Origin: Thysanoteuthis rhombus
Lineage: Eukaryota; Mollusca; Cephalopoda; Oegopsida; Thysanoteuthidae
Direction of reading: 5' to 3'
NCBI GenBank assembly: GCA_963457665.1
Contig: OY735233.1
Coordinates: 26,979,709 to 27,043,708 of the forward strand
DNA length: 64,000 nucleotides
Shown here: one piece after another, positions 1,945 to 9,710 of the stretch
Position numbering within the stretch: position 1 is the stretch's first letter
How the letters are laid out: each line of letters starts with the position of its first letter
Made by a program: the position numbers and the translations under genes
Notes under the pieces: generated by a model
The model's input: only the letters and a program-made list of their open reading frames with translations
The model's database searches: none
Told to the model about the DNA's origin: nothing

Positions 1945-2170
1945 CGGACATGGACGTGATAGTAGTGCCCACAGTAGTCAGAGTCTCAGGAACGGTTCTC
2001 GTGATCAAATTTGAAGAACTGGGAATCCAGGAACAGCCGAGACTAGACGCCAGCATTGATGAAATCGGCCATAATCTTGGGGAGAATCCACGAGTATAGA
2101 TGTGACTTGCTGTCACTTGATCTCTAGTAAAAGCCACCATTCAATACAGGTATAAAAACTCAACCAAATT
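1945..2170 (+). mobile_element. RLE-type non-LTR retrotransposon, copy A (3' end)
   Basis: Translation from about 1950 reads MDVIVVPTVV then GTVLVIKFEELGIQ. This is a diverged match to WNMK.. VVPVIVGALGTVPKTL..RLEE.GI in the better copies of this element (see 12958-14092). It continues through a shortened 3' UTR that keeps 'GACTTGCTGTCACTTGATCTC' at about 2102. It runs directly into the (AAT)n tract at 2171. Strongly 5'-truncated, no intact frame. It is the first member of the head-to-tail chain that extends to 9710. Confidence 0.75.
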
Positions 2171-2274
2171 AAATAATAATAATAATAATAATAATAATAA
2201 TAATAATAATAATAATAATAATAATAATAATAATAATAATGATAATAATAATAATAATAATAATAATAATAATA
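2171..2274 (+). repeat. (AAT)n microsatellite = 3' tail of copy A
   Basis: About 34 AAT units with one GAT interruption near 2241. It follows the 3' UTR end of copy A and is abutted by the 5' truncation point of copy B. I infer that it is the 3' tail of one retroelement and the landing site of the next. Confidence 0.9.
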
Positions 2275-3762
2275 CTTGGGGGTCCTTAAATGCCAGATAC
2301 AAGTACCTTGGGGTCCTTGAATGTGACACGATAAAATGGGAAGAGATGAAGAAGAAAATAATGGGAGAATACCTTACAAGGATAAGGAAAATATTAGAAA
2401 CCAAATTAAACAGCAGAAATCTAATAAAAGAAATGAACACCTGGGCTGTGTCAGTAGTTAGATACACAGGACCTTTCCTAGGATGGACAAAGGAAGAGCT
2501 CCAATCAATGGACAGTTGAACGAGGAAACTTACAACAATGCATAAAGTATTACACCCTAGAGATGACATGAATAGACTATACGTTAAGAGAAAAGAAGGT
2601 GGAAGGAGCCTCATCAGCATAGAGGACTGTAGCCGAGAGCTAAAGTAAACCCAGAGAGGTACGTCCAAGCATACAATGGAGAAATCATAAAGAGTGCACG
2701 AAACAGCTCAACAAACAACAAAGTAGAAAACAATGGAACAGCACAGCAAACTAGGAAAGAAAAATGGGAAAGGAAAAACTGTACAGAGAGTTCAAAATAT
2801 AGAAACAAGATGTAGCAGACGAGAGATCATGGACATGGTTACGGAAGGGAAACCTGAAGAGAGAAACAGAATCGCTCATCATGGCAGCTCAGAACAAAAG
2901 CATTATAACAAAAATCGACAGAACACAGACAAACAGCAAGTGCCGCCTATGTGGAGAAAGAGATGAGACCGTAAATCACATAACTAGTGAATGCAGTCAA
3001 GTCGCTCAGAAGGAGTATAAGCACAGACACGATAGAGTAGCAACAATGATACATTGAGAACTGAGTAAACAAATGGGATCCAACCATGTGGAAAAGTGGT
3101 ACCAGCACTATCCACAAACTACTCTGGGACATGGATATCCAAACTAACCACCTCATCTAGGCAAGAAGACCGAACTTGGTAATTGTAGACAAGAAGAGGA
3201 AAATCTGCCAAATAGTAGATGGGGCTGTACCTGCAGACCATAGAGTAAAGAAGGAGAGTGAAAAGTGGGGAAAATACCAGGACCTAGCGAGAGAACTGAA
3301 GAAGATGTGGAACATGAAAGCCACGGTAGTGCCAGTTATAGTAGGCACACTGGAAACTGTCCCAAAGACACTGAGGGTGAGACTAGAGGAGATCAGGATA
3401 AGATTGAGACTGTAGAAGACACAGCACTGCTACGAACTGCGCGGATACTGAGGAAATTGCTAGAAATATAAAGACTACAACGTTAAATGTTAATAATAAC
3501 CCAAAAGAGGAAGGGAAATGAAAGCAGAAATATGAGTCGCAGCACTGACATGATTGGTGGGGGAAGGAGGAGATGTTGGTGTGAAGACCAGAGGAGACTT
3601 ATCACTCAGCCTTCAGCAATGACCTCTGGGCAACCGGTGTGAAACTGTGAACCGCAGTATTACTGTGACCTATGAGCACTGAGAGAGAAGGGCTGGAGAC
3701 TTGAGGAGACTTGCTGTCACTCAAACTCCAGCGGTACCACCAGGCAACTGGTGTGAGATTGC
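2275..3762 (+). mobile_element. RLE-type non-LTR retrotransposon, copy B
   Basis: Best long view of the C-terminal half of this element. In order: a post-RT region (about 2290-2640, ARYKYLGVLECD, then RKILETKLNSRNLIK, VRYTGPFLGWTKEELQ and LYVKRKEGGRSLIS); a basic linker; a CCHC knuckle at 2941-3010 (CRLCGERDETVNH, then SECSQ); and the restriction-like endonuclease segment at about 3167-3350 (LVIVDKK, then QIVDGAVPADHRVK). The catalytic PD is changed to PN here, which suggests a dead enzyme. The conserved tail DLARELKKMWNM, VVPVIVG and TVPKTL follows. An in-frame TGA near 2518, stops and frameshifts break the ORF. The 3' UTR holds two related modules (3585-3650 and 3690-3762) and ends in (TAA)n. 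The 5' end is truncated at an AAT tract. Confidence 0.88.
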
Positions 3763-3846
3763 TAATAATAATAATAATAATAATAATAATAATAATAATA
3801 ATAATAATAATAATAATAATAATAATAATAATAATAATAATAATAA
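3763..3846 (+). repeat. (TAA)n microsatellite = 3' tail of copy B
   Basis: 28 perfect TAA/AAT units directly after GGTGTGAGATTGC, the last bases of the 3' UTR. Retroelement sequence of copy C resumes at the next base. Confidence 0.92.
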
Positions 3847-7244: not shown

Positions 7245-8950
7245 TAGAATATTGAGAAACAGCGAGGGATACAAATGCTCTAAAAGAAAGAGAATTATCA
7301 ACCACTTGAGAATCAGTAGCTTCTAGCAGAGAACAGGGAATCAATCAACATGATGTTCACGATACGGTGATATTTGAATGGTGTTCCGAGTGGGAAAATA
7401 TGCGCTGATGGTAACGCTCAAGGGCAGGCCTATAGCAACTGAAAGAATTGAATAACTGGGCAACAAAATTAATGCATTGACTACACAGTGCCAATATAAA
7501 AGAACTAGGGGTTCTCGCACGTGAATCTATGAAACTGTATGAAACAAAAGAGAAAATTGAAAAAAGAGATATCTTTGAAGCAGAAGAAAGATATTAGAGA
7601 CCAAACTAAATAGCAGAAATCTGGTAAAGAAAAAAAAACACACCGGTGGTATTAGTAGTAAGATAAATAGGTTTATTTCTTAGATGGACAAAGGATGAAC
7701 TCCAATTCGTGGACTGGCTTTCAAGGAAATTTATGGTGTTGCAAAAGGCTCTACACCCCAGATATGACCTAGAAAGACTGTATGTGAAGAGGAAAGGAAG
7801 CGGTAGAGAACTCATCAGCATAAAAACTGGGATTAGAAAACATGTGCAAGCAAGCGAAAAACATATTATACAAAGCAAACAACAAGAAGATAAAAACGAG
7901 GGAATATCAAAGACAGCCAAGAGGGTATTCGGGGACAGAAAAAAACTACACAGGGAATTCAAAATATCAAAGACAAGCGATCATGAACATGGCTACCCAA
8001 AAGAAAACTGAAGAGAGAAACAAAAACAAAATCCTTTCACCAAAGCAGATAGAAAAGTGCGTTAGGACAATCTCTGTTAAGGCGAAGATCAACAGAAAAG
8101 AATCAGTAAATGCCGTCCATATGAAGAAAGAGGTTGTCCGTGAACCACAACACCTGTGAATGGAGAAAACTAGCCCAGAAACAGTACGAGAACAGGCACG
8201 ACAGGATAGCAACTGTTATGTAAATGGCTGGGATATGCCCATACCGACAAATGATATCAACAAAAGCCAGAGATAGTCCTTGAGAAGAGCCATACTTAAG
8301 ACTGGATCTTTGACATCTAAACCAACTACCGCATCCAAGCAAAAAAGACTTAACCTAATCATCGCACACAAGGGAGATAAAAGCTGTCAAATTGTAGATG
8401 TGGCTTTGCCTGCAGATCATAGAACGATGATGAAAGTCAACGGAAAGTTATGAAAATATCACGACTTGGCAAGGGAGCAGAAAAATGTGTCAGTTATGAA
8501 GGTCTATGTGGTACCAATAATAGTAGGTGCACTTGGAACTGTTCCAAGAACATTGACCACAAATATGGAGGAGCTGGAGATAAGGGGAAGTATTGACATT
8601 ATGCAGACCATAACACTACCGGGGTCTGCACGAATACTGAAAAGAATACCGATAATATAAAACGACCTCCAGTCGTCGAAGGAGAAAAAAGCATATGTAA
8701 GTGACGCTGGGGAAGGTTGATGAACAAACAACTGCACTGCTATGATATGTGATGACGATGAGATAAGGACTGGACACCTGGGCAAATTTACTGTCACTCA
8801 GCCTTCAGCGGTGACAACCTGGCAACTAGTGTAAAACTGCGAAGCACAGCACTGTTGCAGACTGTAGGAGTGGTGAAAGGAAGGTTGGAGACTTGACTAA
8901 CCTTGCTGTCACTTAGTCTTCAGCAACAGCCACCAGGCAACTGGCCGGGA
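7245..8950 (+). mobile_element. RLE-type non-LTR retrotransposon, copy F (longest, decayed)
   Basis: Reaches furthest 5' of all copies. Around 7370-7470 one frame reads VGKYALMVTLKGRPIATERI, comparable with the C-terminal end of the RT domain (a FGLDKCA.. TLKRG-like segment). It goes on with RRKILETKLNSRNLV (7590-7625), then LRWTKDELQFVDWLSRKFMV, LQKALHPRYDLERLYVKRK and ELIS (to about 7825). The knuckle region is poorly kept. The endonuclease tail survives in pieces (about 8340-8660, with VVPIIVGALGTVPRTL). Two 3' modules lie at about 8774-8838 and 8881-8944. There is no TAA tail. Copy I begins directly. Diverged and full of stops, so older than copies B, E and G. Confidence 0.78.
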
Positions 8951-9073
8951 ATGAATACAAGAACAAATATGGCATAGTAGCAATTGTTATACACTGGGAA
9001 CTAAAAAAAACGATTGGGATTTGACCATGTAGACAAATGGTATCAACACAAACCAGATACAGGCCTGAAAAAT
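8951..9073 (+). mobile_element. RLE-type retrotransposon, copy I (left part)
   Basis: Reads NEYKNKYGIVAIVIHWELKK, matching (K)EYK.RHDRVAT.IHWELSK. A frame slip follows, then VDKWYQHKPDTGLKN. Interrupted at the CAT tail of an RTE copy. Confidence 0.75.
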
Positions 9074-9290
9074 CATCATCATCATCATCATCATCATCAT
9101 CATCATCATCATCATCATCAGTCTTTTAACGTCCGTCATTGGACCTTCCCCAAGATTCGCTACGATTCACTCTCATGGGCCTCGCAGTGCCAGTATTTTC
9201 TGAATTGGTCTAGTTTAACTCTCCATCTTGTATTCTGTCAGTCTTAGTTTCGCATGTGATCTCTGGGGATCCATGTTGTGAGACGTGATG
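9074..9290 (-). mobile_element. RTE-like LINE 3' end with (CAT)n tail, inserted in copy I
   Basis: About 16 CAT units at 9074-9120, then 'GTCTTTTAACGTCCGTCATTGGACC..TTCCCCAAGATTCGC', the complement of the RTE 3' end. It continues to 'GGGGATCCATGTTGTGAGACGTGATG', which encodes the LTTWIPRDH region on the minus strand. Only ~170 bp of element plus tail, truncated at 9290. The poly-His frame across the CAT tract is an artefact. Confidence 0.85.
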
Positions 9291-9710
9291 CATTCAAGAC
9301 TGCTCCAAAGATATTGATAACAAAATTCGAGGAGCTGGAGGTAAGAGGGATGAATGAAACAATGCAGACCATAGCACTACTTAGGTTTTCGAGAATACTA
9401 GGGAAAATATTGAAAATATTTGACTTACGACCCCGAATCGTCAGCAATAGCCTCAGCTTAGATGAAAAGGGCATCTTAAAGTAAAGGTTGGGAAAAGTTC
9501 GGAGAGTGCAAACTACAGAACTACATTGATACGCAGGGGACGCAGAATGGAGAGTTGGAGACCTAACATGACCCACAAGTTACTGGTGTGGACTGTGAGA
9601 GTGTTAAAAGAGGTCTAGAGACTTGAGGAGATTCGCTGTCACTCAGTTTTCGGGGAAGCCTATCCGGCGATTAGTGTGAAAATGCAATTGATAATAATAT
9701 CCATCGACCA
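9291..9710 (+). mobile_element. RLE-type retrotransposon, copy I (right part)
   Basis: Resumes as KTAPKILITKFEELEVRGMN then TMQTIALLRFSRILGKILKI, the family's C-terminus. A reduced 3' UTR follows with one good module (GAGACTTGAGGAGATTCGCTGTCACTC at about 9618) and a TGATAATAATA tail remnant (9689-9700). About 300 bp of endonuclease sequence present in other copies is missing between the two halves. The insertion was therefore accompanied or followed by a deletion. Last member of the 1945-9710 chain. Confidence 0.8.

Follow-up and report, generated by a model that had tools for sequence, protein, structure and literature searches.

What produces a chain of truncated retrotransposon copies that all point the same way and have TAA tracts between them? 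The question is raised by positions 1944–9691 of a 64,000-nt stretch of the Thysanoteuthis rhombus genome (contig OY735233.1, positions 26,979,709 to 27,043,708; this whole stretch is called the window below), which hold partial copies of a family of non-LTR (long terminal repeat) retrotransposons of the restriction-like endonuclease (RLE) type. A reading made from the letters alone, here called the sequence-only reading, had suggested that the family targets TAA repeats and makes new ones with its tail, so that each insertion creates the next landing site. Our analysis makes it very probable (about 0.88) that the family inserts by target-primed reverse transcription into (TAA)n and lands also in its own tails, building chains. 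In a genome-wide sample, copies have TAA at both ends in the sense of the element, and they form same-strand chains whose members have distinct truncation points and mixed age classes. The window chain is one of many in this genome.

The chain in the window

An nhmmer profile of copies B, E, F and K was used to scan the window, with the results shown in Table 1. Every copy of the family found within 1944–9691 is on the plus strand, as had been claimed for A, B, C, E, F and I; family matches on the minus strand lie just outside the chain (12871–12653, 12117–12064 and 11632–11499). The AAT or TAA tracts said to end A, B and E, the AAT tract at which E starts, and a fragment of a second lineage near 5375 were likewise found. 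The starts of B, C, E and F lie inside a TAA tract or at most 21 nt from one; the 5′ end of A is not in TAA. The junctions originally placed at 2274/2275, 3846/3847 and 7229/7245 hold to within a few bases, except that B can be aligned to a full-length copy from 2296 onwards and that 14 nt separate the tail of E from F, giving an E/F joint at 7228/7243. The start of B, 2275–2295 (CTTGGGGGTCCTT), nearly repeats a sequence that lies some 30 nt further inside the copy. This has the appearance of a duplicated part of B's 5′ end, as if the template had slipped briefly at the 5′ joint.

The joint between F and G, at about 8944, is not TAA: the two are fused at a shared CAACTGG (8935–8955) and the tail of F is gone, perhaps through a microhomology deletion between two chain members. 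Copies G and I are either two copies or a single copy whose middle has been replaced. Minus-strand pieces of another long interspersed nuclear element (LINE), which we take to be RTE-like, lie within the chain at 4131–4903, where one interrupts copy C, at 5220–5345, and at 9072–9289, between G and I. An ATC repeat adjoins the 3′ side of the piece at 9072 at least. Pfam gave no match to 4294–4743 of the insertion in C.

Plus-strand TAA runs of at least 12 nt occur in the window at 2172–2274, 3763–3846, about 6040–6101, 12201–12254, 14105–14161 and 25555–25617, and a single run of 9 nt or more is antisense, the one that forms the tail of the minus-strand copy J. Of the 11 5′ ends listed for the window, 4 have same-sense TAA (those of B, C and E, and that of L at 25618; binomial 6e-8). 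This figure uses boundaries and an observed number that were put in manually, and a start of L read by eye; the genome-wide count given next is the real test.

Association with TAA tracts across the genome

The genome of the window (2.73 Gb) was searched, and further copies were selected by their 3′ untranslated region (UTR) only, independently of the 5′ flank. For each of the 3′ UTR queries K and E, 30 of 40 scored places were taken, from 2144 and 4467 first-look candidates. Without the window's own K and E, this gives 58 copies scattered over many contigs, most of them 5′-truncated; the 5′ end was resolvable in 55 and not in 3. A search of the same genome with the 3′ UTR of F had a best other match of 75%, and no loci were taken from it. 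For copies of every kind in the genome, the number of first-look candidates is 59,125.

Of the 55 5′ ends, 27 have a TAA run of 9 nt or more in the same sense within 12 nt, and none has an antisense run. Background positions meet this rule in 0.9% of 99,983 cases when they are more than 100 nt from any copy, and in 5.5% of all 113,846 non-element positions. The proposed enrichment of TAA at 5′ junctions thus holds in this genome-wide sample. At the 3′ end, a TAA tail is present in the same sense in 48 of the 58 copies and in the antisense in one, a frequency biased upward by the requirement for an intact 3′ UTR. We also considered microhomology between the cDNA end and TAA, and rejected it: 15 K-like junctions have a mean of 0.53 period-continuing bases, against 0.43 by chance.

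The TAA tracts themselves were approached from the opposite direction. The pattern V(AAT)11 occurs in the genome 10,501 times in forward and 10,521 times in reverse orientation; the counts for the reversed-pattern control (5983 and 6244) come from this repeat read in a different phase and do not measure chance expectation. We inspected 28 of the first 31 listed matches, all from one contig and in one repeat phase, the one favoured by the element's tail (L076 and L077 belong, as its two parts, to a single composite tract). An element 3′ end adjoins the left of 10 of these 28 tracts (an upper estimate) and a 5′ start adjoins the right of 9, with 16 tracts touching a copy on either side and 3 on both.

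Chains and the order of insertion

Within about 1.45 kb downstream, 22 of the 58 sampled copies have a nearest neighbour of the family. In all 22 cases the neighbour shares the strand of the sampled copy, and in 13 it begins no more than 61 nt from the end of that copy. Among nearest upstream neighbours, 25 of 28 are on the same strand. We defined a link as a pair whose upstream member has an intact 3′ end and whose members are separated by no more than 160 nt, 10 nt or fewer of them not TAA-like. On this definition there are 25 same-strand links on 21 of the 58 copies, plus one opposite-strand abutting pair. A TAA run of at least 9 nt is present in 21 of the 25 joints, and absent in L015, L016 (upstream), L036 and L055. 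L056, for example, has seven same-strand matches in about 2.4 kb, and three of four copies with a full open reading frame (ORF) have same-strand neighbours at a TAA tract.

The downstream members start at 25 distinct positions of the model, and in none of the 25 pairs do the two starts come as close as 15 positions. The links are also mixed in age. Median pairwise identity over the last 300 nt is 97.3% among K-like and 88.3% among E-like copies, from which we conclude that the two classes differ in age, and we called a copy young at 90% identity or more to another sampled K-like copy. Read from upstream to downstream, 10 links are then old to young, 9 young to old, 4 young to young and 2 old to old. 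The 19 mixed links (17 of 23 when pairs with an alignment shorter than 100 nt for either member are left out) mean that most links were made by separate events, with tracts re-used from both sides. In L025, for instance, a young copy (96%) is flanked by an old one on each side (75% and 73%). An order based on the tree of the window copies (B younger than C, E younger than F) was set aside: codon-position counts show more third-position change in C, F, G and I, so that part of the divergence in that tree predates insertion, and the genome-wide classes were used instead.

The idea that each insertion makes the next site is supported, with a qualification. In 10 pairs the younger copy lies at the older copy's tail, but growth is not simply outward, since in 9 pairs the younger copy is upstream. 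In four of the 10 old-to-young pairs (L033, L051, L056 and L065) the older member is clearly without TAA at its own 5′ end, and there the older copy's tail is the likeliest source of the landing tract. The older copies in L013 and L022 were also scored as lacking 5′ TAA and probably continue upstream; that in L055 has 5′ TAA, L025 and L036 run off the locus, and L016 was not evaluated.

A proposed mechanism and its alternatives

The observations would be accounted for as follows. The element RNA ends in (UAA)n, and the endonuclease would nick the TTA strand of a TAA tract. The exposed (TTA)n 3′ end could then pair with the (UAA)n tail and prime cDNA synthesis, and the cDNA, often stopped early, would be joined to the remaining tract. 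This course of events would fix the orientation, leave TAA on both sides and place a new tract at the tail. Later copies would land in these tracts, both in the tails of older copies and in the TAA in front of them. In any given case, the use of a tail as target, and not of an older tract, is likewise inferred.

A chain could instead be laid down in one event, if the reverse transcriptase (RT), having reached the 5′ end of one RNA, jumped to the tail of another. PMC8857657 deals with template jumping by the RT of a non-LTR element, and the four young-to-young links would suit it. As a general explanation it is nevertheless improbable and was rejected, because it fails for most pairs: the members of 19 of the 25 links belong to different age classes, for example 98–100% beside 78–83% identity to the young group, and in the window itself B is about 80% and F 65–77% identical to a young copy. 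The same mixture of ages weighs against tandem or segmental duplication of an element with its TAA flank, which the head-to-tail order would otherwise suggest. The distinct starts weigh against it too, identical truncation points being the mark of duplication named in the sequence-only reading. Units made by duplication would share breakpoints and similarity, and these do not. Duplication was not seen in the chains examined and was rejected as a general explanation, being extremely improbable; it could still act on unsampled arrays.

It is harder to separate insertion into own tails from TAA targeting in which the tails have no role and chains merely reflect repeated use of ordinary, pre-existing microsatellites. 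The use of the family's own tails roughly matches their frequency (a tail is at the left in 9 of 27 TAA landings, 5 of 14 for K-like copies, compared with 10 of 28 tracts), there is no copy at the left edge of the tract in the other 18 of 27 landings, and in the window E and L land in tracts with no recognised upstream copy. Against this, the four loci named above have a younger copy at the TAA tail of an older copy that has no TAA in front of it, and the 48 of 58 copies with a TAA tail indicate that most copies bring or keep a tract. We consider an explanation without the tails rather unlikely.

Several results count against insertion into TAA and own tails as the account of these chains. No preference for own tails was seen in the comparison of landings with tracts, for which the tract sample is biased toward tails. 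By our rule 28 of the 55 5′ ends have no TAA run: 10 adjoin no repeat, 8 lie at a trinucleotide microsatellite of another kind, and the rest abut a further copy, which is on the same strand in 9 cases and on the opposite strand in 1. Nor was any site observed in its empty, pre-insertion form. The age class is identity to the young group and, as the window copies show, partly reflects subfamily, and two of the young-to-old pairs rest on short pieces (72 nt downstream in L016, 53 nt upstream in L059). Tract length was rejected as a measure of age: tracts stay pure beside decayed copies, and so have probably been remodelled by slippage.

Self-seeding thus looks like a consequence of TAA targeting combined with a TAA tail, with the number of landing sites still growing with the number of copies. 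It is possible, at somewhat less than even odds, that carrying the target in the tail multiplies landing sites with copies, that this feedback drives expansion of the family, and that the element makes a large share of the long TAA microsatellites; the last part is suggested by the 16 of 28 tracts, picked irrespective of the element, that touch a copy, 3 of them on both sides. Site-specific retrotransposons are limited by the number of their targets, and an element that makes its target escapes this limit. A self-made target would explain both the same-strand truncated chains and the TAA tracts that persist between decayed copies. It also provides a testable link between LINE activity and microsatellite birth, and where copies of different ages are nested in one tract, the relative order of insertion becomes readable from a single locus.

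Identity of the element and comparison with known systems

Four copies in the genome (L069–L072) have an open frame of 1235 amino acids, and their aligned stretches of 4.3–4.8 kb are 98.2–99.5% identical. The L071 protein contains an RVT_1 domain (Pfam, E 6.5e-28), and its best matches in the PDB are R2 proteins (9nl2 at 7.7e-24, 9nl3 and 9dou), ahead of L1 ORF2. A majority piece made from B, E and K matches 9nl2 in order across the CCHC and RLE stretches with a whole-sequence E of 0.0013, the two stretches individually being not significant (E 2 and 4.7). From the RVT_1 domain, the R2 relatives and this ordered match, we assign the element on sequence grounds to the R2 group of RLE-encoding non-LTR retrotransposons, as a young and very abundant member with a predicted C-terminal CCHC motif and PD-(D/E)xK-type endonuclease. 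PDB searches with single pieces or a two-row profile, and NCBIfam and Rfam searches, gave nothing useful, and no relatives of the family were confirmed in viral contigs or prokaryote genomes. In three of the four full-ORF loci, 64–66-bp tandem repeats lie upstream of the ORF, in numbers that vary between copies.

The label R4/Dong fits by the (TAA)n target, which the 5′ and 3′ ends counted above share with that clade; the placement, made from the target, is provisional. Passages of PMC7998251 report (TAA)n targeting by R4/Dong elements, and describe an N-terminal SANT/Myb-like domain without N-terminal zinc fingers, seen only with HHpred. Pfam found no Myb domain in the 1235-residue protein or its N-terminal pieces. 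Excerpts of PMC3774820 describe a hepatitis delta virus (HDV)-like ribozyme at the 5′ end in this clade and use a Dong 5′ junction made of TAA repeats. Rfam found no HDV-like ribozyme (E ≤ 1) in the four full-ORF loci, whose exact 5′ ends are not established; it returned one unrelated match (E 0.3). Dong-R4 elements are among the abundant LINEs of cephalopods, according to a part of PMC8967140.

The T. rhombus element shares with R4/Dong the RT and RLE in one long ORF and the (TAA)n target. It differs in that its copies are mostly 5′-truncated, chains are common and tails serve as targets, features not described in those parts of the Dong literature that we consulted. Utopia, an RLE element that targets U2 small nuclear RNA genes, has one family occasionally inserted in tandem in its target (sections of PMC4640811), but that target is a gene, not a microsatellite renewed by the element's own tail. 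The telomeric HeT-A/TART/TAHRE and SART/TRAS elements form tandem non-LTR arrays or insert into a repeat that persists, and SART/TRAS are found at telomeres in full length only (both from passages of PMC4700185), whereas most copies sampled here are truncated. Those arrays are at chromosome ends, and the window is at 26.98–27.04 Mb of a 46.7-Mb contig. A telomeric retrotransposon array was therefore rejected: the window is not at a contig end and the sampled copies are on many contigs. RTE elements also add a microsatellite with each insertion, but use of the new microsatellite as a target is not reported in the portions of PMC2887409 that we consulted. These also argue that Dong would not increase microsatellites, as it targets pre-existing ones, a view that the tails and the old-to-young links speak against for the present element. 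We found no report of self-seeded Dong chains among titles, beginnings of abstracts and passages in the open-access literature. Insertion of R4/Dong elements into (TAA)n being already known, the novelty lies in the scale of the self-seeded chains and in their dating.

Structure of the 3′ UTR

The last 240 nt or so of the 3′ UTR (13850–14091 in K) consist of two related units about 115 nt apart. Each unit is predicted to fold into a long hairpin and a GCAA-capped hairpin, and the fold of K has −71.5 kcal/mol (z −4.15, with none of 200 shuffles as good). Across 13 units, 83.5% of cells pair, compared with 30–39% when the alignment is slid. Cells changed on both sides exceed those in 497 of 500 shuffles, the other four measures being unremarkable. 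There are some compensatory changes between the two units; in a wider, unscored alignment, copies show little paired change within one unit. The modelled fold is likely to be a structure recognised by the RT.

Other features of the window

Table 1. Copies of the family, TAA tracts and related features. Positions are in the window, except in the last row, where they refer to the named loci.
Feature	Position	Strand	Basis
Copy A, old 5′-truncated 3′ end	1944–2171	+	nhmmer 1944–2042, 2098–2142; weak (E 0.24 and 0.0022)
AAT tract that ends A and in which B (possibly C earlier) landed	2172–2274	+
Copy B, RT thumb to 3′ UTR, 80% to young full-length copy	2275–3762	+	nhmmer 2287–3770
TAA tract, 28 perfect units, B tail and C 5′ flank	3763–3846	+
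Copy C in two parts, 3847–4131 and 4903–5040	3847–5040	+	nhmmer 3859–4131 + 4903–5034
Second RLE lineage, C-terminal fragment	about 5346–5830	+	translation; 80-nt blastn match to L
AAT tract where copy E begins	about 6040–6101	+
Copy E, CCHC/RLE part and 3′ UTR, 75% to young copy	6097–7222	+	nhmmer 6097–7224
Short TAA tail of E	7218–7228	+
Copy F, old, 65–77% over aligned pieces, RT end to 3′ UTR	about 7243–8944	+	nhmmer 7224–8954
Copies G and I (8945–9072, 9289–9691)	8945–9691	+	nhmmer 8950–9072, 9289–9691
Copy J, short TAA-type tail	12653–12952	−	nhmmer to 12871, remainder read by eye
Copy K, young, 94.5% to full-length copy; then AAT tract to about 14161	12953–14093	+	nhmmer 12953–14099
Copy L, second RLE lineage	25618–26320	+	tblastn 25678 to 26310; start read by eye
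Copy N, 186-nt internal fragment, 96% to young copy	53529–53714	+	nhmmer 53530–53714
Small 3′ pieces	56681 and 58952	+	nhmmer (E 0.00013 and 0.19)
Repeats of 64–66 bp upstream of ORF	L069 723–1116; L071 877–1016; L072 772–1109	element's strand

Copies J and K are joined 5′ to 5′ with hardly any gap (12653–14093). Both contain the 3′ UTR, and they are therefore two head-to-head copies rather than one inverted copy. Copy L, whose lineage is distant from the main family (about 30% protein identity), seems to start at the end of the AAT tract 25555–25617. Copy N has neither end of the element and adjoins a (CAA)n run; it is hard to explain by ordinary target-primed insertion. A tandem array at 45828–46276, with a unit of 23/46/69 bp and about 69% matches, is unrelated to the chain.

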